Source of the DNA: Clostridia bacterium
GTDB lineage: Bacteria; Bacillota_A; Clostridia; Oscillospirales; UBA929
Reading direction: 5' to 3'
DNA length: 19,394 nt
NCBI GenBank assembly: GCA_026001245.1
Contig: BNZR01000028.1
Span: 1-19,394, forward strand
The translations under genes were made by a program, and so were the position numbers. Position 1 is the first letter of the stretch. Every line of letters begins with the position of its first letter. The notes under the pieces are model-generated. The model was not told the DNA's origin, searched no databases, and worked only from the letters and a program-made list of their open reading frames with translations. This document shows, piece by piece, positions 1,442 to 16,626 of the stretch.

Positions 1442-3793
1442 ATGAAGCTCATGAAACGTCTGCGCTTCGGAACGTATGCTAACACACTTCTTCTATGCGG
1501 CAGCGAGGCCTTGACGCAAACGAAACTGCTGAACACAATAGCGCGTTCGGTAGACGATACCTGTAAGTTGTCCCGCAACGCCGCCACATTGCTGTTGCAA
1601 TGCAAGACAAATCTGCCGGACGGCAGGAGTAACGCACTCGGCGACGTCATCTCCTGCGCGGCAAATGCCGAGCCGTCCGCTGTTGCCGGGTACTTCGCCA
1701 AAAAAGTTATACCGCTCCTTGACCACAACAAACGGAAACTTTCCGTGCTTGCGCTACGCGAAATTATAATGGAAGATGATACGATTCGCGGAGATACAGT
1801 TGTCGAAACAGTCAGCGGAACAACAAAAAATGCCCTGCAAAAGCAGAGCAAGTTTGTATTATCTGATTTCCTCGCGGGCATCTTTCTGTTTATAACTACT
1901 CTTGATAACAGAATCGGCAAAGAAGCCATAGAATTTCTAAACGAGGAATATATACAGTCTTTTATCGGGATACAGGAAACAATAGCGTTCGTCGTGCCGC
2001 GAAACGAACCCGATGTTGCCACATCGGCGGAGGCGTTTAACGTATACCTCACCAACGCCAAAGAAAAATACGGGAGCGTCAAGACACTGCTTTATAATGA
2101 CCAACCTAAACCATTCTACTGTTTTTACATACCGAACGACGTGGAGCATTCGGTCGGACGCGACAGAAGCAACATCCTTCATAACATCACCGCCGAAACA
2201 CTGTCTCGTGTGTCAAATTTCCTCATACTTGACGGAGTAGGCGGCTTGGGCAAGTCGATGATGATGCGACATCTGCTGTTGAACGCCTGCGATAATTTCA
2301 AGAGTTTTCGTCATATTCCGATTTTTATACCGCTCAAAGATTATGGCGAATCAATGTCTCTGATTGAGTTTGTCTACTTGAAAGCCGAAGCGTTAAACGG
2401 CAAGATTACTGATGTCGCGTTTACGACCGCACTGACCGATGGGCTGTTCCTGTTGTTATTTGACGGTTTGGACGAAATCGACGGCGAGCGCAGCCGCCGC
2501 TTTGAGCGCGAGTTGGAAGCGTTTACAGACAAGTACCCCAAGAACCTCTATGTAATATCATCACGTCCGTATCAGTCGTTCGTGTCATTCTCACGATTTA
2601 CAGTTTTGAAAATCAAACCGTTTACACAACAACAGGCATTGCAGCTTATAGACAAGTTGGAATTTCGGCCGGACGAACCCGCGTTCAAGAACAAGTTCCG
2701 CAGTCTGTTACAGAACTCGCTTTACAACACACACCGCTCATTTGTAGAAAACCCGCTGTTGCTCACGATAATGCTTCTGACATTCGAGAGATTTGCCGAT
2801 ATTCCCACGAAAATGCATAGATTTTACCGCAAAGCGTTTGTGACGCTCTCCGAAACCCATGACGCGAGCAAGGGCGGGTATCGCCGTTCGTATAAAAGCG
2901 GATTGATGATTGATGTTCTTACGGATTACATCACGGAATTCTGCTTTCATTCATACAAAGACGGCAAATTCGAGTTTACCTCCGAGGAGTTTGCGCGATA
3001 CTTTAATATCCTGCGTATAAACGATCACTCAACCAACGCGAAGGGTTTCGCTTATGACTTGTGCGCCAACCTATGCTTTATGTACTTGGAAAGCGGCAAG
3101 TATCACTTCACGCACCGCTCATTTCAGGAATATTTCTGCGCCTTGTTTTTCTCTAAACAAAAGGACATCTTTCTCAAGCGGCTCGGGGGTTTCTTCGAGG
3201 ACAGACAGAAACGTATGCGCGGCGACCAGACTTTTCAAATGCTGTATGACATGATTCCAGACAAGGTTGAAACAAATATCTTCATACCATTTCTACAAGA
3301 GCTGTTTTGGGAATGCGACAGTTCAGACGGTTATTGGGCATTCCTCGAAAAAATGTATCCGATTATCGCATATGAGAACGGTGATACGAACGAGTTTTCA
3401 ATCAATACTCCGACTTCATATCTATTCGGTTTCATTGTAAGACTACTCAAACCTGAATTCACCGTCACCACAGACGACTTGCCGTATGATGAAACATTGG
3501 TTGTTGAAGAATATGGTTACATTTATGAGAATGAAGATGTCCGTACCTTGGTGAATCTCGAAGATATACCCGCACAGTATCCGTGGATACAAGAGCTGCC
3601 GGAAGTTGAAGGAGCAAGGCTTGAATTTGGTGTGGATGAGATTCGAGGACGGCGCGGGTATGATGAGATACTTTCAATGCTTGATGACGATAACTTTGAA
3701 TTCAAGAGTGAATACAATGCGGCACGGCGATATCTTGAAACCATAAAGTTAAAACAGCAAAATGCAGATAGCTATTTTATGGATTTGTTGTAA
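1442..3793 (+). CDS. NACHT-family STAND NTPase, candidate antiphage defence protein
   Basis: A 783-residue protein with a clear NACHT module. Walker A is GVGGLGKS (265-272), Walker B is LLLFDGLDEID (337-347), a sensor-like SSR lies at 373-375, NPLLLTIMLL at 437-446, and the winged-helix motif FTHRSFQEYFCALFF at 556-570. The N-terminal ~180 residues match no effector domain I recognise, and the C-terminal ~200 residues contain no visible repeats. Bacterial NACHT proteins (bNACHT and Avs-like) are known antiphage sensors that oligomerise on recognition of phage products; that role is inferred here by family. AGGAGG at 1435-1440 leaves only 1 nt before the ATG at 1442 but 10 nt before the in-frame ATG at 1451, so the true start may be 1451 (codon 4). 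The next gene starts 25 nt downstream, suggesting co-transcription. Confidence 0.88.
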   Translation: MKLMKRLRFGTYANTLLLCGSEALTQTKLLNTIARSVDDTCKLSRNAATLLLQCKTNLPDGRSNALGDVISCAANAEPSAVAGYFAKKVIPLLDHNKRKLSVLALREIIMEDDTIRGDTVVETVSGTTKNALQKQSKFVLSDFLAGIFLFITTLDNRIGKEAIEFLNEEYIQSFIGIQETIAFVVPRNEPDVATSAEAFNVYLTNAKEKYGSVKTLLYNDQPKPFYCFYIPNDVEHSVGRDRSNILHNITAETLSRVSNFLILDGVGGLGKSMMMRHLLLNACDNFKSFRHIPIFIPLKDYGESMSLIEFVYLKAEALNGKITDVAFTTALTDGLFLLLFDGLDEIDGERSRRFERELEAFTDKYPKNLYVISSRPYQSFVSFSRFTVLKIKPFTQQQALQLIDKLEFRPDEPAFKNKFRSLLQNSLYNTHRSFVENPLLLTIMLLTFERFADIPTKMHRFYRKAFVTLSETHDASKGGYRRSYKSGLMIDVLTDYITEFCFHSYKDGKFEFTSEEFARYFNILRINDHSTNAKGFAYDLCANLCFMYLESGKYHFTHRSFQEYFCALFFSKQKDIFLKRLGGFFEDRQKRMRGDQTFQMLYDMIPDKVETNIFIPFLQELFWECDSSDGYWAFLEKMYPIIAYENGDTNEFSINTPTSYLFGFIVRLLKPEFTVTTDDLPYDETLVVEEYGYIYENEDVRTLVNLEDIPAQYPWIQELPEVEGARLEFGVDEIRGRRGYDEILSMLDDDNFEFKSEYNAARRYLETIKLKQQNADSYFMDLL

Positions 3794-3818
3794 AAATAAA
3801 TAGCGGAGGAAGAGAACT

Positions 3819-4802
3819 TTGAACGAAACTCGAAGCAATCAACTATCAGAACGGCGTATAGCGCCAATAAACGGTGCGGCGTTAATGAAACAGAAATTCG
3901 CCGCGAACCGCTTTCTCGTCGATTCACTCTTGTCTCAAGGGTTATATGTCTTGGCGGGAAAGCCGAAGATTGGCAAGTCATGGCTTGCGCTTCAACTGTG
4001 CCTTGCCGTTGCCAAAGGCGAAAACTTTATAAATCTCGAAACCAAGAAAGCGGGAGCGTTGTACTTCTGCCTTGAAGATGGCTACGCTCGGATACAGGCG
4101 CGGCTTTCCATGCTGACAGATTCCGTTCCGAGCAACACGCATTTCATAAACATTTCGTCTACCATTGGGAACGGGCTTGAAGAGGATATTGAGAACTTTG
4201 TAAGTCGTGAGCGTGACGTAAGATTAGTGGTAATCGACACTTTGCAAATCGTCCGTGCAAAGAACAGCTCATACGCTGACGACTACCGTGAACTATGCTC
4301 GGTGAAATCGCTCGCCGACAGGCTCGGAATAACTATATTATTTATTCATCATGTCAACAAAGCAAAACTGACCGACCCGTTCGATACTATAAGCGGAACA
4401 AACGGCATTCTCGGCAGTTGTGATGGCGGCTTTGTACTTATCCCCAAGGAGCGTGGCGAATCCGAAGCGGTTCTTTACGCCACAAGCCGTGATTTTGAGG
4501 AGTGTAAAATAAATCTCGCTTTTTCGGAGAGTTGCCATTGGGATTGCGCTGATGACGATACGGATATTGTAACGATAGTCAAAGATTTTCTGCTTAGAAA
4601 CGGCGGCTATTTTTCCAACACGGCCACGGTGTTGTTAGAACTGCTTGGTGATGAGTTGCCCGAAAGCACTACGGTTAATTTGCTGTCTCGGCTTTTGGGT
4701 AGCAGTAGCGGTGAACTCTTGTCGAGCGGCATTGAGTTTAAGTCGAGCCGCACTAAGAATTCTCGTAATATTGACTTGCGGTTGATAGGTGACGATAGCT
4801 AG
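3819..4802 (+). CDS. RepA-like AAA ATPase (AAA_25 family)
   Basis: This 327-residue RecA-fold ATPase starts at TTG 3819, chosen because GGAGGA (3805-3810) lies 8 nt upstream and no in-frame ATG is as well placed. Walker A is AGKPKIGKS (46-54). Walker B is LVVID (136-140) followed by TLQIV. The segment ILFIHHVNK (173-181) matches the conserved histidine motif of hexameric RepA-type helicases (the plasmid RSF1010 RepA family). Such proteins are found on plasmids, prophages and integrative elements, often near a replication origin or primase. It follows the NACHT gene by 25 nt. Its last codons run into the GGTGACGAT repeat cluster. It could serve replication of the surrounding element or be a partner of the NACHT protein; the sequence does not decide. 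Confidence 0.85.
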   Translation: MNETRSNQLSERRIAPINGAALMKQKFAANRFLVDSLLSQGLYVLAGKPKIGKSWLALQLCLAVAKGENFINLETKKAGALYFCLEDGYARIQARLSMLTDSVPSNTHFINISSTIGNGLEEDIENFVSRERDVRLVVIDTLQIVRAKNSSYADDYRELCSVKSLADRLGITILFIHHVNKAKLTDPFDTISGTNGILGSCDGGFVLIPKERGESEAVLYATSRDFEECKINLAFSESCHWDCADDDTDIVTIVKDFLLRNGGYFSNTATVLLELLGDELPESTTVNLLSRLLGSSSGELLSSGIEFKSSRTKNSRNIDLRLIGDDS

Positions 4803-4901
4803 TTTCTTATCGTCACCTGTGTAAGCATTGTAATTACAGAGCTTTTCAAGCATCGGTGACGAGATGACGATAAAGTTCTGCCCCAACATACCATCGTCAC
4901 C
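4787..4901. repeat. Cluster of GGTGACGAT repeats, iteron- or operator-like
   Basis: The motif GGTGACGAT occurs four to five times in about 115 bp. AGGTGACGATA (4787-4797) and its exact reverse complement TATCGTCACCT (4808-4818) form an 11-bp dyad with a 10-nt loop. GGTGACGA recurs at 4855-4862, TGACGATA at 4865-4872, and ATCGTCACC (inverted) at 4893-4901. A separate palindrome TGTAATTACA lies at 4829-4838. The cluster lies between the RepA-like gene and the KilA-N gene, overlapping the 3' end of the former. The dyad has no T-run after it, so a terminator is less likely than protein binding sites. Confidence 0.6.
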
Positions 4902-4943
4902 ACTCGACTTAGAAATGACACTAATTATTAGGAGGATGCTAAG

Positions 4944-5804
4944 ATGGCAGACAAGAGTTTCAAGGGGAAAATAAACGCGAAAGGGACGGAGATAACGGTT
5001 CTATCACAAGGGACACCTGACGATTATTTGAGCTTGACAGACATCGCCAAGTTTAAAAATCCTGAATTTCCGGCAGAAGTGGTGCGGAACTGGTTGCGAA
5101 CGCGTTTTGCTATAGAATTTTGCGGGATATGGGAACAACTCCATAACCCCAACTTTAAACTGGTCGAATTCGACCAGTTTAAGAACGAGTCAGGTGCGAA
5201 TGCGTTTGTGCTGTCGCCACAAAAATGGATTGAATCTACAAATGCCATCGGAATGGTGTCGCGGTCAGGGCGCGGTGGTGGTACGTTTGCTCACATTGAC
5301 CTCGCTTTCGAGTTCGCCTCTTGGATTTCGCCGGAGTTCAAGTTGTATATCATTCAAGACTATCAACGCTTGAAATCAGACGAGAATAGCCGAATATCCC
5401 TCGACTGGAATGTTAAACGCATACTTGCTAAGGTTAACTATAAAATTCATACTGACGCTATCCGCGACAACCTTATTCCAGACGAACTGACCGCACGACA
5501 ACGGTCTTTCGTATATGCCGACGAAGCAGACTTGCTTAACGTCGCACTGTTTGGACAGACTGCCGCCGAGTGGCGCAAATCAAATCCCGATAAAAAGGGC
5601 AATATGCGCGACGGTGCTACGATTGAGCAATTGCTCGTTCTTGCTAATCTTGAAAACGTCAATGCTCTGTACATAGGCAAAGGTCTGCCGCAGGAGGAGC
5701 GCATTACGGAGCTAAACCGACTGGCGCGTCAGCAGTTGGCGCAATTGCTTTCCAACAGCAGTGTTAAGGGTATGAAAGATTTGGAGAAGCCGACTCTTAA
5801 ATGA
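4944..5804 (+). CDS. KilA-N domain protein
   Basis: A 286-residue protein starting at ATG 4944 with AGGAGG 8 nt upstream. The KilA-N domain spans about residues 25-145. It shows the family pattern: YLSLTDIAKFKN (29-40), a WLRTR...EF.G.WEQL.NP.F segment (50-71), LSPQKWI (90-96), SGRGGGTFAHIDLAFEFASW (108-127) and SPEFKLYIIQ (129-138). KilA-N is a DNA-binding fold found in phage and mobile-element proteins, often with a variable C-terminal domain. Here residues ~150-286 are that domain and have no known function that I recognise. A perfect 28-bp palindrome lies inside the gene at 5155-5182. The gene ends just before a strong terminator and may bind the upstream repeat cluster, which is inference. 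Confidence 0.87.
   Translation: MADKSFKGKINAKGTEITVLSQGTPDDYLSLTDIAKFKNPEFPAEVVRNWLRTRFAIEFCGIWEQLHNPNFKLVEFDQFKNESGANAFVLSPQKWIESTNAIGMVSRSGRGGGTFAHIDLAFEFASWISPEFKLYIIQDYQRLKSDENSRISLDWNVKRILAKVNYKIHTDAIRDNLIPDELTARQRSFVYADEADLLNVALFGQTAAEWRKSNPDKKGNMRDGATIEQLLVLANLENVNALYIGKGLPQEERITELNRLARQQLAQLLSNSSVKGMKDLEKPTLK
5155..5182. repeat. 28-bp perfect palindrome inside the KilA-N gene
   Basis: Each half reads TTAAACTGGTCGAA toward the centre, with no spacer and no mismatch over 28 bp. It lies in frame and encodes residues of the conserved KilA-N region around LVEFDQF (73-79). Confidence 0.9.
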
Positions 5805-5819
5805 ATTTTGTGCTTGTGT

Positions 5820-5858
5820 TCTAAACCGCACATTTCGCTTTGAAATGTGCGGTTTAGA
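5820..5858 (+). terminator. Strong hairpin terminator after KilA-N gene
   Basis: A perfect 17-bp stem (5820-5836 with 5842-5858) and a GCTTT loop lie 16 nt after the KilA-N stop. The 3' side continues TTTGTCTT, a modest U-tract, consistent with a Rho-independent terminator closing the NACHT/RepA/KilA-N unit. Confidence 0.8.
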
Positions 5859-5864
5859 TTTGTC

Positions 5865-5893
5865 TTGACTTTCTCGCCTTTTTGCCCCATACT
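5865..5893 (+). promoter_or_regulatory. Possible promoter for the tyrosine recombinase gene
   Basis: TTGACT (5865-5870) and CATACT (5888-5893) are 17 nt apart, just after the terminator and about 45 nt before the recombinase start. The -10 element is weak, so this is a tentative call. Confidence 0.4.
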
Positions 5894-5939
5894 ACGATAC
5901 TGACTACGGTCAAAATTCAATAGAAAGAGGGAATACAAT

Positions 5940-6755
5940 GTGAAACTCATAACTTTAGAGTGCCTTGCGGACTTCGCGCACCACTTGAAACTTGCCGAGA
6001 AATCGGAAGCGACCATCACCAAATACACACGCGATGTCCGCAAGTTCGCGGAATATCTCGGCGGTGAACCTGTATCTAAGGAAGCCGTCATCGACTACAA
6101 GTCCAAACTCCGAGCCGATGGGCGTGCGGTTACAGGCATAAACGCCGTTATCGCCGCGATTAACAGCTTTCTCGACTTTCTGCAACTGCCCGACCTCAAA
6201 ATCAAGCCATTCAAAGTCCAACGCCGTCAATTCCGCGACTCCAACCGCGAGATGACTCGTGACGAGTACAGTAATCTGCTCTCGGCCGCGCTTAACAGCG
6301 GCAATTGTCAGCTGTGGCTTATCATGCAGACCATCTGCTCGACAGGTATCCGCGTCAGCGAATTGCAGTTTGTGACGGTCGAAGCAGTGAAGCTCGGACA
6401 AATCACCGTTACGAACAAGGGCAAGACGCGCGTGGTGCCGCTTACCGAGAAGCTCTGCGACAAGTTGACGAAATATATAATGAAGTCGAAAATCACGGGA
6501 GAGGTGTTCCCTGTCAAGCGCAATGAGGTCTGGCGCGAAATGAAAAAACTCTGCGCCAAAGCGAGCGTAGAGCCTAAGAAAGTATTTCCACATAATTTGC
6601 GGCATCTGTTCGGGGTTACATTCTACCATCGCGAGCGCGACATCGTGAAGTTGGCGGCTCTCCTCGGACACTCGGATGTTAATACGACGCGGATTTATAC
6701 GTTGGAGAGCGACAAGCTGTATCGGGTGGGGTTGGATTTGGGGTTGGTGGCGTGA
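5940..6755 (+). CDS. Tyrosine recombinase, XerC/D-like, catalytically intact
   Basis: A 271-residue recombinase starting at GTG 5940. The overlapping ATG at 5938 is followed at once by a stop, and GAGGG lies 8 nt before the GTG. An N-terminal SAM-like core-binding domain (about 1-90) precedes the catalytic domain. All catalytic residues are visible: R138 in STGIRVSEL, K160 in TNKGKTR, H218 and R221 in PHNLRH, H244 in LLGHSDVNTT, and the nucleophile Y253 in RIYT. The family cuts and rejoins DNA through a 3'-phosphotyrosine, for integration, dimer resolution or inversion. The stop is only 7 nt before the left inverted repeat of the 6763-6991 segment, as expected for a recombinase encoded beside the switch it inverts. 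It could instead be the integrase of a mobile element. Confidence 0.92.
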   Translation: MKLITLECLADFAHHLKLAEKSEATITKYTRDVRKFAEYLGGEPVSKEAVIDYKSKLRADGRAVTGINAVIAAINSFLDFLQLPDLKIKPFKVQRRQFRDSNREMTRDEYSNLLSAALNSGNCQLWLIMQTICSTGIRVSELQFVTVEAVKLGQITVTNKGKTRVVPLTEKLCDKLTKYIMKSKITGEVFPVKRNEVWREMKKLCAKASVEPKKVFPHNLRHLFGVTFYHRERDIVKLAALLGHSDVNTTRIYTLESDKLYRVGLDLGLVA

Positions 6756-6762
6756 GAAAGAT

Positions 6763-6779
6763 AATTGTGATTCGCTACC
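6763..6779 (+). repeat. Left inverted repeat of the candidate switch
   Basis: AATTGTGATTCGCTACC. It shares 11 contiguous bases, then 4 of the next 6, with the reverse complement of 6975-6991. Confidence 0.75.
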
Positions 6780-6803
6780 GCGATAAAACCAAATTATAGC
6801 GAA
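6771..6803. repeat. Stem-loop TTCGCTA/TAGCGAA inside the switch
   Basis: A perfect 7-bp inverted repeat with a 19-nt loop overlaps the left repeat. It lies downstream of the minus-strand promoter and would fall in the leader of the operon transcript after inversion. Confidence 0.5.
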
Positions 6804-6831
6804 ACATAGGGACAATGCCCCGACGCTCGTC

Positions 6832-6861
6832 ATTATAACATACCTGACAGCGGCTTGTCAA
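6832..6861 (-). promoter_or_regulatory. Consensus promoter with extended -10, facing left
   Basis: On the minus strand TTGACA (6861-6856) is followed after 18 nt by TATAAT (6837-6832), preceded by the extended -10 TGT. Both hexamers are perfect. In this orientation it transcribes only antisense to the recombinase gene; no gene it could serve lies downstream on that strand. Confidence 0.75.
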
Positions 6862-6882
6862 GACCTTTTATGAATAATTTTA

Positions 6883-6914
6883 AGCCGGACGAGGAATCGA
6901 GCCTCGACCCGGCT
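6883..6914. terminator. GC-rich stem-loop, possible read-through block
   Basis: AGCCGG (6883-6888) pairs with CCGGCT (6909-6914), and CGAGG (6890-6894) pairs with CCTCG (6902-6906), with a 7-nt loop. The T-run is weak. In the present orientation it lies between the recombinase gene and the operon and could stop read-through; after inversion it would sit upstream of the promoter. Confidence 0.45.
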
Positions 6915-6974
6915 ATTTCAACTTGTTCCAATGTATTGTAAGCGTCGTTTAAGACGGATGACATTTCCTGTTTT

Positions 6975-6991
6975 GGTACAGAATCACAATT
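6975..6991 (-). repeat. Right inverted repeat of the candidate switch
   Basis: On the minus strand it reads AATTGTGATTCTGTACC, matching the left repeat at 15 of 17 positions. It ends 28 nt before the GTG at 7020. Confidence 0.75.
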
Positions 6992-7019
6992 CCATTTTAT
7001 GCTTGGAAGGGTGAGCTGT

Positions 7020-7847
7020 GTGAAAATGAATGTCGCCACAGACGAGTGGGTGCGGATAAAACTGCCGCACCATGTAGACCGTCAGGATCGGTTGTTGCTC
7101 GTTAAGAACCATATCCTCCCTGAACTTGGTGAGATGGACATGGAGAAGATAACGAGCGAAACAATCCACAGCTATCTGGAACGCAAAGCCTCCGACGGGT
7201 TAAGCGTCGTGACCGTTCGTACGCTGGGCGGTATAATTAAGTCCGTCTTGCGTGTTCAAGGGTTCAGACCTAAAGTGACATTGCCGAAAAATCGGGAAGA
7301 AGACTCGAAAGTCCTCACGCATGACGAACAGCTTAGGCTTGAAGTGTTCTTGAACAAGAATACTGACATCAACAAGTTGGAGGTATTGCTGTGTCTGCAC
7401 ACGGGTATGCGCGTGAACGAGTTGGGAGCGCTGAAGTGGGAAGACATCGGGGAACGTGAGATTTTCGTGCGAAACGGCATAAAACGCATAGCGGGCAAAG
7501 GCTTGGAGATATACGTGTTGGGAGGTAAAAGCCAGCGGAGGTTGCCGATTCCTGTGTTTTTGAAAGAGAAACTGGAGGAATTCCGTCCGAAAAATCAACA
7601 GGCATATTTTCTCTCGTGTGAGGCGTGGATGGTTGAGCCGCGATATGTTGAACGGCGACTGGCCGAGTTCGGCGAGGATTGTGAGATTCCGGGACTGACG
7701 TTTAGGGTGTTGCGGAACACGTTCGTTCATCGAGCCGCTGAGTTTAATATGGATTCGCGGGAGCTGTTGCGGCGACTGGGCTGCGTGAAGCTGAACAAGG
7801 AGTTTACGGAGATATTGAGGGAAGCACAGGGTAAGGTTGCGATTTGA
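7020..7847 (+). CDS. Degenerate tyrosine recombinase, predicted catalytically dead
   Basis: GTG at 7020 is preferred because GGAAGG (7005-7010) lies 9 nt upstream; the in-frame ATG at 6999 has no ribosome site, and ATG 7026 is an alternative. The 275-residue protein has a SAM-like core-binding region (about 1-85) and a recombinase catalytic fold. It keeps R131 (HTGMRVNEL), K170 (GGKSQRR) and R232. The H of the HxxR box is replaced by R229 (TFRVLRNTF), the following H by N233, and the LGH histidine by C255. No tyrosine lies where the nucleophile should be (around E264), nor anywhere after Y209. It therefore should not cut DNA. It is the first gene after the candidate promoter switch and is 17 nt from the next gene. 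It may be a DNA-binding partner of the intact recombinase, a regulator, or a decaying integrase. Confidence 0.82.
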   Translation: MKMNVATDEWVRIKLPHHVDRQDRLLLVKNHILPELGEMDMEKITSETIHSYLERKASDGLSVVTVRTLGGIIKSVLRVQGFRPKVTLPKNREEDSKVLTHDEQLRLEVFLNKNTDINKLEVLLCLHTGMRVNELGALKWEDIGEREIFVRNGIKRIAGKGLEIYVLGGKSQRRLPIPVFLKEKLEEFRPKNQQAYFLSCEAWMVEPRYVERRLAEFGEDCEIPGLTFRVLRNTFVHRAAEFNMDSRELLRRLGCVKLNKEFTEILREAQGKVAI

Positions 7848-7864
7848 GTTGAGGGGGTGAGGTT

Positions 7865-9082
7865 TTGTTCAGTAAGTCAGAGTACAAACGCGCACAGCGG
7901 AAATTCCCGACCGACGCGCTGACAGTCTGTTTTGGCGTGTCCGCAGACGGTTACGGCGGCGGAGTTCGCGCTGTGTATGAAGCTATGCTTGCTGACGAGA
8001 AATACTCCCTGTACAATTTTGTTTGGGGTGTCCCTGAAACCGATGTTAGAGATTACTTGTTTTTACGTGAGAATCCTCGGACGCGAATCGTGAAGATTGG
8101 CAGCGAACATCACCTCCGCGCACTGGTTCGGGCTAAGTATTGGTTCAGCGACGGAAGTTTTGGAATTAAAGCAAAGAAAGACCAAGTTTTGACTTGCACG
8201 AAAGACAGCAATCCTATAGAACTGTTGGAGCGAGTTATTGACTTAAACGAAGTGAGAACCGAAGCCGCAAAGAAAGCTGTCGAACGCAGAGAACGCGGCT
8301 ATGAGCGCTACGCGAAATTCATGGGTATATTTCGCGGAATGGGTTTATATGCATCTAAAAATGCCAAAAAGTTGGCTTCATATCGGGACAAGCATAAAGG
8401 ACAGCGGTGTTTTCTTGTTGGCAACGGTCCGAGCCTAACAACTACAGACCTTAGCAAACTCAAAGGCGAAATAACATTTGGATGTAACATGATTACGAAG
8501 ATATTTGACCAAACGGACTGGCGACCGAATTACTACTTTCTGCTTGAATGGCCGGTAATGGCACAAGTCAAGGACGAAATTGCGGATTGTGAAGTGTTTT
8601 TCAGTCGGCAAGGATACTTGAAGTTAAAAGAACATGATATGTTGCCGCCGAAATATGTATATGTCAATCAGATATTTCCAAGAGATAAATATTGGGTGAC
8701 AAACAATTTGTTTAAGTATTTTATAACGTCGAGAGCCACAGTTATGACATATATTATCGAAACTGCGATGTATATGGGATTCAGCGAGATATATCTGCTT
8801 GGCGTAGATAACACTAATCCGTTTGTTTCGGGTAGTCATTTTTCGCCTAACTATCGCGACGAGAAGTTGCAATATCGGGAGAATCTCAAAGCCGTGCGGA
8901 CGGCGGGGCAGTTTAAGAATGCTTTAGAAATACAGGGTAATATCACGAAAACCAACGCAGATTATGCGTATGGTGAGTTGTGTGAATATGCGGAGAAGCG
9001 CGACATTCACATTTACAACGCGACACGCGGCGGCGAGTTGGAATCGTTTGAGCGTGTGGATTTGGATGAGGTGGTGGCATAA
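7865..9082 (+). CDS. GT42/DUF115-like glycosyltransferase with TagB-like N-terminus
   Basis: A 405-residue protein starting at TTG 7865, with AGGGGG 7 nt upstream and a 17-nt gap from the previous gene. Residues ~15-105 resemble the N-terminal part of TagB/TagF CDP-glycerol glycerophosphotransferases (VYEAML, NFVWGVPET, RAKYWFSDG). Residues ~178-390 resemble the DUF115 and GT42 sialyltransferase fold: CFLVGNGPSL (182-191), CNMI (207-210), and ITSRATVMTYIIETAMYMGF (287-306), then SEIYLLGVD (307-315), with a later SHF (324-326). The last pieces parallel those of Campylobacter Cst-II, where a similar GNGPSL binds CMP-sugar. DUF115 proteins are also linked to flagellin glycosylation (Maf). Next to NeuB and NeuA, transfer of a nonulosonic acid is the likeliest role. 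No signal peptide or membrane segment is visible. Confidence 0.75.
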   Translation: MFSKSEYKRAQRKFPTDALTVCFGVSADGYGGGVRAVYEAMLADEKYSLYNFVWGVPETDVRDYLFLRENPRTRIVKIGSEHHLRALVRAKYWFSDGSFGIKAKKDQVLTCTKDSNPIELLERVIDLNEVRTEAAKKAVERRERGYERYAKFMGIFRGMGLYASKNAKKLASYRDKHKGQRCFLVGNGPSLTTTDLSKLKGEITFGCNMITKIFDQTDWRPNYYFLLEWPVMAQVKDEIADCEVFFSRQGYLKLKEHDMLPPKYVYVNQIFPRDKYWVTNNLFKYFITSRATVMTYIIETAMYMGFSEIYLLGVDNTNPFVSGSHFSPNYRDEKLQYRENLKAVRTAGQFKNALEIQGNITKTNADYAYGELCEYAEKRDIHIYNATRGGELESFERVDLDEVVA

Positions 9083-9129: not shown

Positions 9130-10014
9130 ATGACTTATCAAACCTACGAAGCACCAAAAGTTATCGCAGAAATTGGGTGCAACCACATGGGCGATATGGA
9201 ATTGGCGAAAAAGATGATTCGCGAGGCGGCTTTCTGCAACGCTGATGTCGTCAAGTTCCAAAAACGCAATAACCGAGAATTGCTGACGGATGAGCAATAT
9301 AACGCTCCGCATCCCAATCCCGCTAACTCATATGGAGAAACCTATGGAGAACACCGCGAGTTCTTAGAGTTTACGCCAGAACAACACGCCGAGTTGCAAG
9401 ACTATTGCAGAGAAGTAGGGATTATTTACGGTTGTTCGGTATGGGATTTGACCTCGGCGCAACAGATAATGAAACTTCATCTCTCGTCTATCAAAATACC
9501 CTCTGCCTGCAACAACAATGAGAGAATGTTGCGTTTTTTGTGTCAGCATTATATCGGAGAGATACATGTTTCGCTGGGCATGACGACTCGCGACGAGTTG
9601 CACGATATGATACGGCTGTTTGAGGAAGAAAACAGATTGAGAGATGTTGTATTGTATATCTGTACCTCTGGGTATCCCGTACCGTTTAAGGATTTGCGGT
9701 TGTTGGAGATAGAGCGTATCAAAACTGTATACGGCAACATTGTCAAAGGAATTGGGTTTTCGGGACATCACCTCGGTATTGCGGCAGACATTGCCGCGTA
9801 CACGCTTGGAGCATCGATAATTGAACGTCACTTCACGCTCGACCGCACAATGAAAGGTACAGACCATGCCGCGTCATTAGAGCCGGATGGCTTGCGGAAA
9901 CTCAAACGCAACTTGGAAGCGGTATATCAAGCGTTGCATGAGCGAGGGACTAATATTCTTCCGATTGAGAAGCCACAAAGAGATAAGCTGAAATACCGGG
10001 GTGAGGATGAGTGA
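9130..10014 (+). CDS. neuB: NeuB-family nonulosonic acid synthase lacking SAF domain
   Basis: ATG 9130 has GGAGG 7 nt upstream. The 294-residue protein carries the NeuB TIM barrel: IAEIGCNHMGD (12-22), VKFQK (41-45), a SIKIPSACNNNE segment, HVSLGMT, YICTSGYPVPF, GFSGHHLGI, and a final IIERHFTLDRTMKGTDH segment followed by ASLEP. The enzyme condenses phosphoenolpyruvate with ManNAc or a related hexose to give a sialic, legionaminic or pseudaminic acid. The usual C-terminal SAF (antifreeze-like) domain is missing: the protein stops about 50 residues short of the usual ~340-350. The stop overlaps the next start by 4 nt, so translation is probably coupled. Which nonulosonic acid is made cannot be told from this window; no epimerase, dehydratase or aminotransferase is present. 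Confidence 0.9.
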   Translation: MTYQTYEAPKVIAEIGCNHMGDMELAKKMIREAAFCNADVVKFQKRNNRELLTDEQYNAPHPNPANSYGETYGEHREFLEFTPEQHAELQDYCREVGIIYGCSVWDLTSAQQIMKLHLSSIKIPSACNNNERMLRFLCQHYIGEIHVSLGMTTRDELHDMIRLFEEENRLRDVVLYICTSGYPVPFKDLRLLEIERIKTVYGNIVKGIGFSGHHLGIAADIAAYTLGASIIERHFTLDRTMKGTDHAASLEPDGLRKLKRNLEAVYQALHERGTNILPIEKPQRDKLKYRGEDE

Positions 10015-11159
10015 GAACGGTTGCGTTTATCCCTGTGCGCGGTGGTAGCAAGTCAATTCCGCTGAAAAACATCAAGCTCATCGCGGGAAAACCGTTGATT
10101 TATTGGACGGCTAAAGCCGCGAGTGATTGTCTGTTTATTGACGAAGTTTATATTGCCACGGATAGCGATGTAATAGCCGAAACGGTTAAGAAGTTGCAAT
10201 TACCTAAAGTTTCTGTTGTCGGTCGTTCTGTTGATAGCGCCACGGACACGGCGAGTACAGAGTCGGCAATGTTGGAGTTTGCGGCGCAGCATGAATTTGA
10301 CAGGATTGCGTTGATACAAGCAACATCGCCGCTACTGGTAGAAGAAGATTTGAATGGCGGTTTTAAGTTATTCGAGAGCAAAAACATCGACAGCGTATTG
10401 TCTGTTGTGCGGCAGAAACGCTTTCATTGGCAATTTGACGGAAATGGTATTGCAACTCCTACAAACTATGACTATCTCAAACGTCCGCGCAGGCAGGAAT
10501 TTGACGGTTATTTAGTTGAAAATGGCGCGTTTTATATCACAAGTCGGAGGCAGTTATTAGAAACGCGTTGCAGAATTTCCGGCAACATTCGGGCATATGA
10601 GATGTCGGAAGAAAGCTATTTTGAAATAGACGAACCGAGTGATTGGATAATCGTTGAGAACTTGCTGCAAAAACGTCATAAAAAGAGTACTCAAATCAAA
10701 CTTGTGGCAACCGATTGTGACGGAGTTTTGACAGACGGCGGCATGTATTACTCCGAAAATGGCGATGAACTGAAACGCTTTAACGCGAAAGACGGGCATG
10801 GCTTCAAGTTATTGCGCGACGCAGGTATAAAGACTGCTATCATCAGCGGAGAGTATAACGCGATATTGGAGCGACGGGCGAAGAAGCTCAAAGTTGACAG
10901 CTTAATTATGGGTGAGCAAGACAAGTTGGGCGCGTTGACAAGACTTTGCGACGAGTACGGTATGGACATAAGCGAAGCGGCGTACATCGGCGATGATGTT
11001 TTTGATATTCCGGCGCTCACGGCTTGCGGTATGGGTTGCGCCCCAGCGGACGCGTTGGACAGCGTTAAGAATGCGGCAAGCTATGTGTCGCGTGTTTCGG
11101 GCGGCAACGGAGTTTTCAGAGATGTTGCGGAGATTGTTTTATTAGGAGGGAATAGATAA
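10011..11159 (+). CDS. neuA: CMP-nonulosonate synthetase fused to KdsC-like HAD phosphatase
   Basis: A 382-residue two-domain protein starting at GTG 10011, 4 nt inside neuB. Residues 1-222 are a CMP-sugar nucleotidyltransferase: PVRGGSKSIPLKN (8-20), YIATDSDVI (47-55), LIQATSPL (101-108) and YLVENGAFYI (167-176). It should activate the NeuB product with CTP. Residues ~229-382 are a KdsC-type HAD phosphatase with nucleophile D235 and D237 in ATDCDGVLTDGG, IISG (277-280) and IGDDVFD (326-332). The phosphatase would release the 9-phosphate if NeuB uses a 6-phosphorylated sugar, so synthesis, dephosphorylation and activation are carried by two polypeptides. KdsC-like tails are known on animal CMP-sialate synthetases and some bacterial ones. 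Its stop overlaps the next ATG by one base. Confidence 0.9.
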   Translation: MRTVAFIPVRGGSKSIPLKNIKLIAGKPLIYWTAKAASDCLFIDEVYIATDSDVIAETVKKLQLPKVSVVGRSVDSATDTASTESAMLEFAAQHEFDRIALIQATSPLLVEEDLNGGFKLFESKNIDSVLSVVRQKRFHWQFDGNGIATPTNYDYLKRPRRQEFDGYLVENGAFYITSRRQLLETRCRISGNIRAYEMSEESYFEIDEPSDWIIVENLLQKRHKKSTQIKLVATDCDGVLTDGGMYYSENGDELKRFNAKDGHGFKLLRDAGIKTAIISGEYNAILERRAKKLKVDSLIMGEQDKLGALTRLCDEYGMDISEAAYIGDDVFDIPALTACGMGCAPADALDSVKNAASYVSRVSGGNGVFRDVAEIVLLGGNR

Positions 11160-14100
11160 TGGGGTTGTTTGGGAAGAAAAAGAATAATGCAATAATTCCA
11201 AAAGAGATTGCGCTTGTGAAGCCTGAAAACAAGGCTGATTATAATCTCGTTGCTTCCCCGGTGAAGTCGAAAGCTATAGATATTGACAGAACATTTGGAG
11301 GATTTAATATCTGCAATAGTAAAAACGTCAGATTGATTGAACAAAATGGTTTGTTTGTCATTAAGAAAGGCTCCCTCAGTTTTGCTGTTGAAGTTAAGCC
11401 AAATACAGTCTATCGAGTAACTCGCAATGAAGTGGCTACTGCCAACGACAGATTTAGAATATATTTTTGTGATGGTAATTTTCTAGAAGATAAAAGTTTA
11501 CGGAAGCAAAAAACATGGGGATACGACAATCAAATGGGAGCGACTTTCAGAACTGACGAAAGTACAAAGTATTTGCTCATATATCTAGGAGCTGAAAAGC
11601 AATACTCAAACGTGTGCGTAAACATGACTGAATTTGAAAAATCCTTAACAAGCTTATTTACGCCCCAAAAAAGCACTTACAATTCCGACATACTAATTCG
11701 TAGGGTTCGTAGTGCTTGGCGAACAAGTGGCGCAACGAATAGCTTGATTGAAATACTTGACTTCATCAGTCAAGGGCAATGGGCGTGGAAAAATGAAGAC
11801 AGTAGAATTTGGCTGATATATTGTGCTTGCCTAATTGAAAAAGGAGAAATTGATGGCGCGGCAAAGATACTCAATATCTATAAAGGTAGATATGGATTGT
11901 TGAACATAGAAAAATTCTTAACAGTAGCCACATTTGCACGTAGTATTGGCATCAGAAACTCAAGCATAGACAAGGCGAATATTGTGTTCAATCAACTGGA
12001 AAATAATATAAAAAATAATATATTTAAGCAATATGTGCGCGGTAAAACTATCGCTGTTGTCGGCAACGGAGATACGGAAATCGGCAAAAGATTGGGTGGA
12101 GAAATTGATTCACACGACATTGTTATTAGATTCAATAATTATCCGCAAGGATATGAAGCGGATTACGGTAATAAAACTACTGTATGGGTCAGAAACGGCA
12201 ATCGTTTGTTGATTGACAAGGCAAATTTAGAAGATTTTGATTTGGTTGTTTGGGAACCGGAATTTAAGCACACTCCTCTGCAATATACACAATTGGATGT
12301 CTTGTTCCGAGATTTGAGCATTTATCCCGAAAAAGTTATATATTTTGACTGGGAAACGAAAACGAAGCTACTTGCAATTTCAGGGATTACTGTGCCTACC
12401 TCCGGTTGTGTGTTGCTTTGGATGCTATATTCTGCCTTGGGAGGACTAAATAATGTTGACGTTTACGGGTTTTCATTCCTAAAAAAAGATTACGAGAATA
12501 CGAAACACTTTTATGACGATTTATCAAAAATGGATGGTGATCACGACCCCGCCAAAGAATATGACTTTCTTTACACTCTCTATTGGGGTAGCAAAGATAA
12601 TGGTATGGATTCGTCGGAAAATCATATCGCATTGGTTTCTTGCGCATTTGAAAACAAAAACGGCATTGGTGATGTTTTGGAACAACAGCGCTGCTTCTTC
12701 GGAAAACAGTTCCGCAATAGTAAATTGCTGTATCTTAATGCGCCAGACATAGAAAAGCACAAGCGCAACACATCGGTCTTAACCACAGGTTTGAATGAGC
12801 GAGTTGGCGCGCTCTTTGTTGCCGCTGATTTTATTCAAAACAACGAACAAATTGAAATGGAACTCAACAGCGGAGCAAAACTATTGTTCATTTGTCATGA
12901 TGTGGGTACGGCTTATGGCGCATATTTGTGCGGATACAAATATGCTCTTGTATATCATTTGACAGGGAACTTGTCGAGCAACCTTGAAGCGGCAGGCTAT
13001 GAACTCAGCGAGCGAGAGAAAATCCTTGCCGATAAGATTGAAAAAATCGCGTTTGAAAATGCAGAGAAAGTATACTTTCAATCGCCTTATGTCCGTGAAG
13101 CGTTTGTTAAAACCTCTACTGTTGTGGGTTCTTTTGCAGATTACTATTTGCCTAACACCACGTTTAGCAAAGGGTCGAGTTCAATTACGCTCGAACAGTA
13201 CGAATTGCCGCCAAAAACAAAAAAGCTATCAGTGTTTATCAGCATCTCTGATTTCAGTCATAGAGCAGGCATGGAACGCGTGCCTGAATTCCTTGAAGCA
13301 TACGTCGGTATTTCAGGTGAGAAGGTTCTGTGGATTGCTGTGGGGTCAACAGGCAACGACAAGGATATTTACAACTCACTTGTAGCTGCAAAAGACAACT
13401 GGGATTTCAAATCTCTTTTTATAGGCGAAACTATAGGGCGCGATGAACAATCAGCGTTAATTGATTATGCTGATTATTTCATAATGTTACAACGCGACAC
13501 GGTGTTTGACAGCGCGGCACTTGAAGCCATGCGCGAGAAGAAGCGTATGATACTTTCTGATGTCGGCGGCAACAACGAACTAAATATCGCCGACAATGTG
13601 GTCATAGTTCATGATGACAATTATAATATTGCCGTGCGTGACGCGTTAAAAAGAAACGCAGTAATTTGGGGAGAGAGTAACCATCAAGTTTTTAATGAGC
13701 ATTTTTCAGAGGACGGTTTCTTTAAGAGTTACGCAAAAATGATGACTGACGAGCTTGAAAATATGGGAGTCGTATTTAGGCAAAATTCACAGGTAAACGA
13801 ACAAACATTCAAGCCATTCAAGGATTATTACAAAGGGAAGACCGCCGTTATATGCGGTTCGGGAAGTAGTCTTGATGGGTATAAGCCGATTGAGGGCGCA
13901 ATCCATATCGCAATAAATCGTGCTTTGTTCTATGAAGCCGTTGATTTCAATATGTTGTTTATGCACGAAATTCCAAAGAATCAGCCATATAACTTGGCGG
14001 ACTATAACAATTATTATTGCGATAAATTTTACGCATTTGACAGCGATTCAGACGTTGCGAGAGGCAAGCTTTTTAGATTTGAACTCTCGCCGATTGGATT

Positions 14101-14407
14101 TGATTACAGGATTGACGACCCTGAAGCAGAAATTGACAAGTACTGCGTGAGCAATATGAACTCTGCGTTGTTCTCTGCGTTACAATTCGCGGTATTTGCG
14201 GGATTTAAGAAAATTATTCTGTATGGTGTAGATTTCTCAGATATGAATTTCAACGGTCAAGCCAATCCAAACATATATAGCGAGCATATTGAGGATGTTT
14301 TTGCGGGATATATCTGGTTTGCTAAAAAAGATTATCCTGATGTTGAAATTAGAATCGGAAGTACAACAAATGAGAAGTTGAAAATTGAGAAGGGAGTCAA
14401 TTCATGA
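11159..14407 (+). CDS. Three-module glycosyltransferase: GT29 + GT4 + GT42/DUF115-like
   Basis: A 1082-residue protein. Residues ~40-160 look like a beta-rich, possibly carbohydrate-binding region, and ~175-290 look helical. Residues ~295-475 carry all four sialylmotifs of GT29 sialyltransferases, otherwise best known from animals: L (VVGNG at 300-304, then EIDSHDIVIRFN at 315-326), S (TSGCVLL...VDVYGFSF, 414-440), III (HFYD, 450-453) and VS (HxxxxE as HDPAKE, 462-467). Residues ~545-865 form a GT-B fold with a GT4-like end, FDSAALEAM (783-791) and LSDVGGNNE (799-807). Residues ~892-1070 form a second GT42/DUF115-like module: ICGSGSSLDGY (898-908), AINRALFY (918-925) and SALFSALQFAVFAGFKKIIL (1002-1021), then YGVDFSD (1022-1028). 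No transmembrane segment is visible. It starts on the last base of the neuA stop and ends 4 nt into the next gene. It may build a multi-sugar unit in the cytoplasm. Confidence 0.85.
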   Translation: MGLFGKKKNNAIIPKEIALVKPENKADYNLVASPVKSKAIDIDRTFGGFNICNSKNVRLIEQNGLFVIKKGSLSFAVEVKPNTVYRVTRNEVATANDRFRIYFCDGNFLEDKSLRKQKTWGYDNQMGATFRTDESTKYLLIYLGAEKQYSNVCVNMTEFEKSLTSLFTPQKSTYNSDILIRRVRSAWRTSGATNSLIEILDFISQGQWAWKNEDSRIWLIYCACLIEKGEIDGAAKILNIYKGRYGLLNIEKFLTVATFARSIGIRNSSIDKANIVFNQLENNIKNNIFKQYVRGKTIAVVGNGDTEIGKRLGGEIDSHDIVIRFNNYPQGYEADYGNKTTVWVRNGNRLLIDKANLEDFDLVVWEPEFKHTPLQYTQLDVLFRDLSIYPEKVIYFDWETKTKLLAISGITVPTSGCVLLWMLYSALGGLNNVDVYGFSFLKKDYENTKHFYDDLSKMDGDHDPAKEYDFLYTLYWGSKDNGMDSSENHIALVSCAFENKNGIGDVLEQQRCFFGKQFRNSKLLYLNAPDIEKHKRNTSVLTTGLNERVGALFVAADFIQNNEQIEMELNSGAKLLFICHDVGTAYGAYLCGYKYALVYHLTGNLSSNLEAAGYELSEREKILADKIEKIAFENAEKVYFQSPYVREAFVKTSTVVGSFADYYLPNTTFSKGSSSITLEQYELPPKTKKLSVFISISDFSHRAGMERVPEFLEAYVGISGEKVLWIAVGSTGNDKDIYNSLVAAKDNWDFKSLFIGETIGRDEQSALIDYADYFIMLQRDTVFDSAALEAMREKKRMILSDVGGNNELNIADNVVIVHDDNYNIAVRDALKRNAVIWGESNHQVFNEHFSEDGFFKSYAKMMTDELENMGVVFRQNSQVNEQTFKPFKDYYKGKTAVICGSGSSLDGYKPIEGAIHIAINRALFYEAVDFNMLFMHEIPKNQPYNLADYNNYYCDKFYAFDSDSDVARGKLFRFELSPIGFDYRIDDPEAEIDKYCVSNMNSALFSALQFAVFAGFKKIILYGVDFSDMNFNGQANPNIYSEHIEDVFAGYIWFAKKDYPDVEIRIGSTTNEKLKIEKGVNS

Positions 14408-16626
14408 AAGTTCAGAGAAAACCATTCACAGTTAGAGAAATCGCCGCTGCTTGTGGAGGCGTGTTCTATGGAGATTTTGCGATTTTAGACAAAACCGTAG
14501 ATTCGATAGCTACTATACTAAAAAACATCTCCGGGAATGCCTGTTGCTTTGTAGCCAGTATGAGAAAAGCGGTTACTGACGCAGAGTATATGAAAAAACT
14601 TATTGACGAGGCTTACGCAAAGGGTGCGCTTTGCGTTGTTTCGGATTTAGCGCTGAGTACGAGCAAGCCTTATATCAAGGTTAGCAGCATGAGGTGGAAA
14701 GCGGGCGTGCTACACTCAATCGGGCTTTTGTGGACTCGCTCCTGTGTTATTCCAACGATATCAATAACCGGAAGCAACGGGAAAACTTGTGTTACGGATA
14801 TGGTAGACGAAGTTCTTAAACAAAAGCTAACGACAAGTAAAATAAAAGTTTGGACTGAACAACCCGACAACCCAGTTTTCTTATGGCATGATAAGCATGA
14901 TGTAGCTGTCGTTGAAACTGCCACGGGTAGTGGTTGGTCAAATCAACGAAACGGCGAATTGTTGCGTCCGGATGTTGTCGTTATTACAATGATAGGAACA
15001 GCGCATATGGGACATTACAAGATTCAATCACGCGATTCAGTTTTGGAAGCCAAAGCGAAATTATTGGACTACCTTTCTCCCGCAGGGATAGCCTACCTAA
15101 ATGGCGATGACGACAAGTTGACTACACTTGCTCTTTCACCGCCGCAAACTATAAAATGGTTTGGGCTTAATAAAAAACATGATTATTATGCCACTATTAG
15201 CGAAGTTGCCATGACAGGTAGCAAGTGTAAGTTTGTTAGAAAAAGCGACGGTCTTTCTTTAAGCCTTACCATTCCTGTCCCGGGGAACCACATGGTATAT
15301 AACGCGCTTCCCGCGTTTGCCATCGGTCTTGACTTCGGAATAGAGCTTGATAGCATTAAGTATGCGTTAGAACATTTTTCAGCACCCAAATCGCGTACAA
15401 ACGTAATTGAAACTGATTTTCTCACTATTATTGAAGATTGTCACAACGCCGCTCCTGAGTCATGCCGCGTAGCAATTGATGTTGTCGCCAATTCTGAGAA
15501 AAGAAAGGTTTTTTGTTTTGGCGGCATGTTGGAGTTAGGTGAGAATTCACTTTCGTTGCATGAAGATGTTGCGAAATACGCTGCAGAGCGAGTTGATGTA
15601 GCTTTGTTTTCAGGAGAATTTGCGGACGCTATGAAATCAGCTTTCATCGAAACAGCTTCACAAGGCAAGAGCGCGTTGGCTTTTGATGACAGAGATAAAT
15701 TGATGTTAGACTTATGGCCTTTAATTCAAAAAGATGATGTCATCCTAGTAAAGGCTTCTGGCGGAGTAGCATTTTCGCCTATTGCGGAACGGTTAAAACT
15801 TTTCGCCGATAACTCCCCCCCCCCCTCTCACTCAAATAATATTTGTATTGTCGACCAAGACGGCGATGTTTTGTTTGATAAAAAAGCGGACGCCCGAGAA
15901 TATCCGGCAAGCAACACAAAAATACTGACGTGTATAATGGCGCTGGAGAAACTAGCGCTTGACGACCGTATAGAAGTTCCCGAAACTCTCAAAAGAGATA
16001 CTAATGTTCTCGAACCGTATGAAACATTCGCTCTGATGGATGCGTTGTATTTGCTCATGTTGGAGTCTTCAAACGGCATGGCATTAACTATCGCAGATAA
16101 TATTGCGGGTTCAACTGAGGCTTTCGTTAAGCAAATGAACAAGTTTGCGGAGTTATTGGGAGTAGAGTCACCGAGTTTTTGTTCTCCTGCCGGATTAGGT
16201 AGCAGAGCTAAAGAACGTGTGTCGCCTAAAGAAATGCTGAAAATTATGTCGTATGCGATAAAGAACAAAACGTTTAGGCAAATCATTTCCACGCCCTCAA
16301 AAACAATCTATTCATCGAAAAAACGTTTTGACTTAGTAAATACAAACGAGCTTGTTATCAGCGATAATCCTCAATACTATTCATTATGTGGTGGCGGCAA
16401 AACAGGAACTTGGATAAACAAAAAGGAGGGCAAAGAAATCGGGCGCGTCTACTCTTTAGTTTCATTTTCACAAAAAGGCGATACCACCCTGCTGATGTCG
16501 CAGATGTCTGACTTTGCTACAAAAAACGATGGTTCACGTCGTTTCAAAGAAGCCGCCGCTATGTACGAATGGGCATTCGCAAATTACGAGAAACTGAAAA
16601 AACAACCGTGGGAGGACAAAACATGA
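14404..16626 (+). CDS. murF: MurF ligase fused to S11 D-Ala-D-Ala carboxypeptidase
   Basis: A 740-residue fusion starting at ATG 14404, with a 4-nt overlap on both sides. Residues 1-468 are a complete MurF-type ligase: ATP loop TGSNGKT (122-128), ETATGSGWSN (171-180), YLNGDDD (231-237), EDCHNAAPES (344-353), GGMLELGE (373-380) and VKASGG (449-454). MurF adds D-Ala-D-Ala to the peptide of UDP-MurNAc-tripeptide. Residues ~478-725 are a peptidase S11 domain with SxxK at S503-NT-K506, SxN at S555-S-N557 and KTG at 666-668. Such enzymes remove terminal D-Ala and are normally exported, yet no signal peptide or membrane segment exists here. The linker is encoded by a run of 11 C that could slip. The context of sialic-type sugar genes plus a Ddl argues for a specialised glycan role, not a housekeeping one. 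Confidence 0.9.
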   Translation: MKVQRKPFTVREIAAACGGVFYGDFAILDKTVDSIATILKNISGNACCFVASMRKAVTDAEYMKKLIDEAYAKGALCVVSDLALSTSKPYIKVSSMRWKAGVLHSIGLLWTRSCVIPTISITGSNGKTCVTDMVDEVLKQKLTTSKIKVWTEQPDNPVFLWHDKHDVAVVETATGSGWSNQRNGELLRPDVVVITMIGTAHMGHYKIQSRDSVLEAKAKLLDYLSPAGIAYLNGDDDKLTTLALSPPQTIKWFGLNKKHDYYATISEVAMTGSKCKFVRKSDGLSLSLTIPVPGNHMVYNALPAFAIGLDFGIELDSIKYALEHFSAPKSRTNVIETDFLTIIEDCHNAAPESCRVAIDVVANSEKRKVFCFGGMLELGENSLSLHEDVAKYAAERVDVALFSGEFADAMKSAFIETASQGKSALAFDDRDKLMLDLWPLIQKDDVILVKASGGVAFSPIAERLKLFADNSPPPSHSNNICIVDQDGDVLFDKKADAREYPASNTKILTCIMALEKLALDDRIEVPETLKRDTNVLEPYETFALMDALYLLMLESSNGMALTIADNIAGSTEAFVKQMNKFAELLGVESPSFCSPAGLGSRAKERVSPKEMLKIMSYAIKNKTFRQIISTPSKTIYSSKKRFDLVNTNELVISDNPQYYSLCGGGKTGTWINKKEGKEIGRVYSLVSFSQKGDTTLLMSQMSDFATKNDGSRRFKEAAAMYEWAFANYEKLKKQPWEDKT
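15815..15825. repeat. C11 homopolymer at the MurF/carboxypeptidase junction
   Basis: Eleven uninterrupted C bases encode most of SPPP (471-474). With 12 C the frame reads LSLK then TAA, giving a 478-residue MurF-only product. With 10 C it ends at TGA after 33 altered residues (507 total). Both lose the SxxK serine of the peptidase. Confidence 0.9.

Follow-up and report, generated by a model that had tools for sequence, protein, structure and literature searches.

Organization of the locus

The window, that is, the whole stretch of 19,394 nucleotides of clostridial DNA that was analysed, carries a tyrosine recombinase gene, rec1 (5940-6755, plus strand), a short noncoding segment (6763-6991), and a run of seven genes that opens with a second, dead recombinase gene, rec2. 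The rec1 product matches the Pfam Phage_integrase family (3.4e-22), is Xer-like when compared with PDB, and has a complete catalytic set (R138 K162 H218 R221 H244 Y253). Its stop codon lies 7 nt before the left arm of an inverted repeat. An earlier reading made from the letters of the DNA (the 'sequence-only reading') had described an intact recombinase ending at this place, and both the frame and the catalytic residues bear this out. The same reading had reported 17-bp inverted repeats around 229 bp of noncoding DNA; the arms were found again at 6763-6779 and 6975-6991 (17 nt each, 15/17 or 88% complementary, 195 nt between them).

Between the arms lies a perfect sigma-70-type promoter on the minus strand, TTGACA-N18-TATAAT with a TG before the second hexamer (6832-6861, read from 6861 to 6832). 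It is the sole 12/12 site among the 6 sites present in 5500-8500, where shuffled sequences gave a mean of 3.2 sites (sd 1.7). As assembled, it points away from the seven genes; a promoter of this type facing away from the operon, with the assembled form being OFF, is what had been claimed, and the geometry agrees. When the segment was inverted in a script, the -35 hexamer came to lie at 6893 and the transcription start near 6929. The likely start codon of rec2, GTG at 7020 behind the motif GGAAGG, was then about 91 nt past the transcription start, in line with the leader of about 90 nt predicted earlier. Inverted repeats flanking a promoter, with an intact tyrosine recombinase gene adjoining, make up the layout of an inverton.

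A strong hairpin (6883-6914; -19.4 kcal/mol, z -3.64, minus strand folded) stands directly upstream of the promoter and on its strand, between the promoter and the right repeat; it is a possible insulator in the ON orientation. Another hairpin, terminator-like (5820-5858, plus strand; perfect 17-nt inverted repeat, 18 pairs, loop of 3, T-rich tail), lies between rec1 and the KilA-N gene that precedes it. A search for tRNAs and Rfam RNAs across the window found none.

The seven genes downstream, all on the plus strand, have intact frames and are separated by gaps of -58 to +47 nt. After rec2 (6999-7847, with the likely start at 7020) come genes for an MptE-like protein (7865-9082; partial Glyphos_transf match), a NeuB-type nonulosonate synthase (9130-10014; NeuB 6.8e-67, with SiaC/NeuB and PseI relatives), a cytidylyltransferase fused to a KdsC/KDN-9-phosphatase-like HAD domain (10011-11159; KDN-9-phosphatase model 152 bits, cut-off 180), and a 1082-aa protein with a GT29 sialyltransferase-like domain (11159-14407; Glyco_transf_29 3.5e-18, with weak MptE-like and GT1 matches). 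The PDB entries closest to this bacterial GT29 protein are mammalian sialyltransferases (4mps, E 9e-8). The last two genes encode a MurF-like Mur ligase fused to a D-Ala-D-Ala carboxypeptidase (14404-16626) and a D-Ala-D-Ala ligase family (Ddl-like) protein (16569-17606). Synthase, CMP-activation and transferase genes occur together, as in a nonulosonate operon; with the phosphatase, they point to a nonulosonate product, perhaps KDN-like. Cell-wall precursor genes (14404-17606) would be odd under a phase switch unless they are second copies or have a promoter of their own.

Beyond the glycan run, a gene for an AAA_14/DUF4143 ATPase (17854-19074, minus strand) is convergent with its end. Upstream of rec1, the region 1442-5804 encodes a NACHT protein with an SNaCT14 domain, an AAA_25 ATPase and the KilA-N protein, which have a defence or mobile-element look. 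Plasmid collections gave no match to the window. The sole match in phage collections, 222 bp long, falls under the KilA-N gene and comes from five satellite phages. A KilA-N relative, 66% identical, is also found directly upstream of the recombinase at one related locus (L169).

A probable recombination site shared by a clostridial recombinase family

Taken by itself, the window repeat stands out only moderately. Its 15/17 matches compare with a best of 13 among 60 single-base shuffles of a 350-bp stretch; with a score that penalises mismatches, the window repeat had 11, against up to 12 in 20 dinucleotide shuffles of an 830-bp stretch. This judgement is blind, in that it ignores the site carried by the relatives of rec1.

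The nearest of these relatives (P0002 to P0009) are 74 to 93% identical to rec1, the 93% being that of P0002, and carry the source label Clostridia bacterium. Clostridia proved to be the home of a large rec1 family. Nine relatives were aligned and used to scan named genomes, which yielded 53 loci, two of them distant (24 to 25% identity), and in the order of one scanned genome 103 of 394 sampled genomes had a match at E <= 1e-60. The same locus in the other orientation was sought in the 394 genomes of that one order, and no relative was close enough (best identity listed, 53%). The one recombinase brought up by a viral scan was distant (32% identical) and had no qualifying repeat. The genome of [Clostridium] symbiosum ATCC 14940 (L018, L170 to L176) has 13 rec1 matches, of which 8 reach E 1e-57 or better, so that many switches may coexist in one cell.

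At E <= 1e-40, 133 distinct copies of the recombinase were taken. All but two, and rec1 among them, have the full R-K-H-R-H-Y set (131/133); one exception lacks the Tyr in the alignment and the other has Arg for Lys. Leaving aside 15 copies with less than 450 bases downstream, 118 loci could be tested for a repeat. At 102 of these, the window included, we found a repeat with the core ACATAAT-N4-ATTATGT, the N4 being identical in both copies. This core is an 18-bp palindrome located just downstream of the recombinase gene; a locus was counted when at least 18 of 28 arm positions agreed over both sites and the N4 was identical, and 16 of the 118 failed. The core was present in 59 of 62 repeats of an earlier subset, and the N4 agreed in 59/59, an agreement partly built into the repeats since the search picked aligned registers. 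A strong inverted repeat (score of 14 or more) starting within 300 bp of the recombinase stop was present at 101 of 118 loci, compared to 0 of 103 upstream regions and 0 of 98 regions taken 3 kb downstream. The distance between arms ranged from 155 to 386 bp (median 231.5). At one locus (L196:2311-2730), which lies between a family recombinase and a dead one, the arms are 86 nt long and include a stretch that by eye looks like the 3' part of a tRNA. The palindrome should allow invertible promoters to be called from sequence in many Clostridia.

In the window, both sites could be placed on the plus-strand coordinates: a left core AGATAAT-TGTG-ATTCGCT at 6759-6776, overlapping the left repeat, and a right core ACAGAAT-CACA-ATTCCAT at 6978-6995, overlapping the right one. 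The two cores are inverted with the same N4, and the N4 with its adjoining bases forms an exact 11-mer, AATTGTGATTC, identical in both sites. The pair passes the family core test with 20 of 28 arm positions. When all 25,805 identical-N4 pairs of the whole window were ranked with a matrix built without the window (start distances of 120 to 419), this pair came first, with a score of 15.9 against 4.4 for the next. The right site on its own is the second-best single site in the window; the left core on its own is weak (PWM score -0.36 bits). The repeat score of 11 stays below the threshold of 14 and is among the weakest of the family; arms of the ACAGAAT type are present also at L087, L093 and L095. 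Given the family site, the window pair is far beyond chance.

Opposite orientations and promoters at related loci

The sequence-only reading had pointed to related genomes as the place to seek the opposite orientation. Forty segments were compared all against all, which gave 25 pairs with similar interiors, 6 of them in opposite orientation. Three of these six (L027/L029, L009/L027 and L008/L011) are collinear on both sides of the segment, so that the opposite orientation was indeed found at 3 of 25 comparable pairs of related loci. For L008/L010 only the left flank matched, and the two further opposite pairs were short, weak matches. Since L009 agrees with L029, and L010 with L011, L027 and L008 are the turned ones, in two events. 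L009 and L027 share a metagenome bin, and so do L008, L010 and L011; for the most part, these pairs therefore set paralogous loci side by side.

The orientation of the best promoter follows that of the segment: it is on the minus strand in L027 and on the plus strand in L029 and L009, on the plus strand in L008 and on the minus strand in L010 and L011. Over the 102 core-bearing segments, promoters with at least 11/12 matches were found in 22, compared to 29 of 2040 shuffles, and perfect 12/12 promoters in 11, compared to 0 of 2040 shuffles. Among the 22, the promoter pointed away from the operon in 16 and toward it in 6. The remaining 80 segments showed no strong sigma-70-type promoter. Taken together, opposite orientations, shared sites and their recurrence at 102 of 118 loci make a far stronger case for inversion, and for the recombinase as its catalyst, than the window by itself.

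The genes placed behind these switches are varied. The first downstream frame is on the switched strand at 83 of 105 loci. From these 105 loci, 61 downstream proteins were picked by hand (mostly the first frame on the switched strand), and 87 families were matched, including DUF4379 (5), CpsB/CapC capsule (3), leucine-rich repeats (3), cohesin (3), Band 7 (3), SLH (2) and SpaA (2). When 207 loci were compared with the genes of the window's glycan run, the only relatives recovered were one of the cytidylyltransferase (L048, 29%) and one of the Mur ligase (L019, 26%); among these loci a nonulosonate operon behind such a switch was thus met in the window only.

Dead recombinases as predicted first switched genes

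The sequence-only reading had also placed a dead recombinase ahead of the sugar genes. Rec2 answers to this description: H-II, H-III and the Tyr of the R-K-H-R-H-Y set are replaced, the Lys is ambiguous, and both Arg are retained. A profile of the active family, run over the 7.5 kb downstream of the 118 recombinases, missed rec2 itself and detected 18 recombinase-like frames, all but 3 of them on the switched strand. Of those 15, 13 are dead, one (L027) is cut by the contig end, and one is an intact, separate copy 6.4 kb away. The dead frame opens 99 to 780 nt behind the recombinase stop in 12 of 13 cases, and 1980 nt behind it in L150. A NusG-like gene precedes the dead gene at L023 and L028 (for the latter, Pfam NusG 21.2 bits, cut-off 22.2). 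Two loci with a dead gene depart from the family site: L181 has no repeat and L123 narrowly fails the core test.

The 13 dead proteins form two related groups, d1 (4 members) and d2 (9 members). A d2 profile run on 392 genomes of another order found 19 places in 8 genomes, two of these places being query members. In the alignment, H-III and the Tyr are absent from every one of the 19, and all 10 with enough upstream sequence adjoin a family recombinase and a repeat. At L199 and L200 the adjoining recombinase is split between frames. A search for d1 proteins gave no match at E <= 1e-60 in 392 genomes, a result that shows little because none of these genomes was known to contain a d1. Within the d1 and d2 set, which does not include rec2, pairwise dN/dS was 0.06 to 0.20 in the 29 of 33 pairs that allowed the calculation, several of which reuse the same genes and many of which have dS above 1; the least saturated pair, L025/L028, had 0.12 at dS 0.17. 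For comparison, the active recombinases had 0.08 to 0.15 in six pairs. We conclude that dead genes of the d1/d2 type are under purifying selection. When the label 'dead partner' was placed on the tree of active recombinases, 11 changes were counted, at least 7 of them forced by well-supported branches; this count is rough, as rows without downstream DNA were scored as lacking a partner and P0002 as having one.

A d2 protein could be modelled well (L029, mean pLDDT 87.4); it comes from the cultured Acetatifactor muris DSM 23669, whose genome also contains L178. The model retains the two-domain build, with one long helix at the end, and its fold matches are XerA, an archaeal Xer, the Tn1549 and lambda integrases, and the phi3T repressor SroF. 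The last of these brings up an alternative role for rec2, that of a transcription regulator of the promoter or the operon, without action on recombination. There is a precedent in MrpR (YopR), which is described as a DNA-binding repressor that has a tyrosine-recombinase fold but no longer works as a recombinase (PMC10516654). The d2 genes, however, lie beside a switch recombinase and its repeat in 10/10 places, which a recombination role fits at least as well, and we hold a purely transcriptional role to be a serious but unlikely alternative.

Rec2 appears to belong to an integrase-type lineage other than d1 and d2. It aligns with integrases of 353 to 424 aa (phmmer 82.5 to 104.9 bits), than which it is shorter, and its Pfam match stops at profile position 155 of 172. 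Comparison with the d2 profile gave E 0.14, and with rec1 an hhalign probability of 23%, so that the two recombinases of the window are weakly comparable. The structure model of rec2 is too low in confidence to use (mean pLDDT 36.9). A protein search returned only two relatives at E <= 0.001. One of them, P0121, is 97% identical to rec2; it may come from the same locus as P0002, as both list a longest contig of 7404 bases. P0122, a 250-aa protein of the source series that also includes P0121, matches just the opening part of rec2; the rest of P0122 is unrelated and had no significant counterpart in the window (best E 0.62) or among the collected loci (0.24). It is perhaps an assembly chimera, or else a rearrangement.

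The shortness of rec2, its three missing catalytic residues and its two relatives would all suit the non-functional remnant of a mobile-element integrase, left behind the switch by chance. Against this, rec2 has an intact frame with a Shine-Dalgarno-like GGAAGG ahead of the start, and an identity of 97% to P0121, which makes it at least as conserved as rec1. Moreover, dead recombinases occupy the same place at 13 other loci, where selection has kept them. We therefore consider a chance remnant rather improbable. As rec2 is not clearly related to d1 or d2, the place of the dead partner seems to have been filled from at least two lineages.

Proposed mechanism

We propose that the 229-bp segment 6763-6991 is an invertible promoter, with a probability of roughly 87%. 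Rec1 would recombine the two 18-bp palindrome-like sites, which share the 4-nt spacer, and so flip the segment. In the assembled state the promoter would fire back over the 3' end of rec1, perhaps giving antisense RNA to rec1, and the operon would be OFF. In the inverted state it would drive the run of seven genes, rec2 first, followed by nonulosonate synthesis, activation and transfer, and a surface glycan would thereby become phase variable. The switch reading put forward earlier is strongly supported by the anatomy, the OFF orientation and the comparison within the family; inversion of the window copy itself is what we infer from these.

As the inverted promoter faces rec2, this protein would be made first in the ON state, and in that state only. 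Its most likely action is to bind DNA in or close to the switch and to feed back on recombination or on the promoter: it could lock the switch, bias it, or regulate the promoter in the way that MrpR does in a prophage. On balance, we favour some feedback role for rec2. A broader hypothesis, which we put forward tentatively and at somewhat less than even odds, is that invertible promoters of Clostridia have repeatedly recruited a dead recombinase, from at least two lineages, which is made only in the ON state, associates with the active recombinase or with its sites, and sets the direction or rate of the next inversion, so that switching would be regulated or hysteretic. Phase switches are usually pictured as random, with a bias set by separate regulators; a dead recombinase restricted to the ON state would, if this is true, let a switch sense its own state.

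The segment might instead be a frozen switch, whose ancestral sites have drifted so that it no longer inverts, the operon being silent or read from another promoter. Most of the family has stronger sites than the window, and the 15/17 repeat has its mismatches at two adjacent positions. Yet the 11-mer around the N4 is still exact in both sites, rec1 has kept all its catalytic residues, the promoter is perfect and the seven frames are intact; a frozen switch is thus quite unlikely. That the repeats are the attachment site of an integrative element (NACHT, AAA_25, KilA-N, integrase) ending here was rejected as highly improbable: KilA-N and AAA_25 genes do lie upstream of an integrase-type gene, and the KilA-N match extends to satellite phages, but when ten upstream and operon proteins were compared with 207 loci KilA-N and AAA_25 matched one locus each, and the layout of recombinase, repeat and promoter recurs at 102 of 118 family loci.

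Comparison with known systems

The fim switch of E. coli is an invertible promoter of some 300 bp with adjoining tyrosine recombinase genes, and the window resembles it in both respects. FimB and FimE are both active and encoded outside the switched operon, whereas in the window rec2 is dead and lies inside the switched run. The layout is also like that of the RecV switches of C. difficile (flagellar, CwpV and Cmr), in which a clostridial tyrosine recombinase inverts a short segment before surface genes. RecV acts on several distant switches; rec1 is 7 nt from the segment that it would invert, and the switched run begins with a dead recombinase gene. Among inversion-positive Firmicutes samples, 14 of 15 were Clostridia (PMC5903667). 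MrpR/YopR and SroF offer a proposed parallel for rec2, as DNA-binding regulators with a recombinase fold; they are phage lysogeny regulators, and the accessible part of their description includes no invertible promoter (PMC10516654).

The closest counterpart comes from a defined gut community. Its inverton group 139 comprises 33 invertons, all but one from Clostridia (32), and has a significant association with a single nearby group of tyrosine-type recombinases/integrases, invertase group 35 (PMC11892184). The rec1 family is probably the same as this pair of groups, a match made by description. The authors call the inverted-repeat motif of group 139 novel and state that invertases near invertons are generally not placed for control by the inverton promoter, with group 145 as a possible exception (PMC11892184). 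A dead recombinase in the switched position is absent from the consulted sections of that paper, and the window has one. In a search of open-access full texts, we found no description of a dead recombinase at an invertible promoter, nor of a phase-variable nonulosonate.

The sequence-only reading had suggested a new phase-variable surface-glycan locus here. This stands in part: the design is known and belongs to a family widespread in Clostridia; the dead recombinase as first switched gene is its most unusual part. The window adds a sialic-type glycan operon to the possible targets of such switches. Its active part, made up of recombinase, sites and promoter, is of an already known kind, and the dead partner is a new variation on it.
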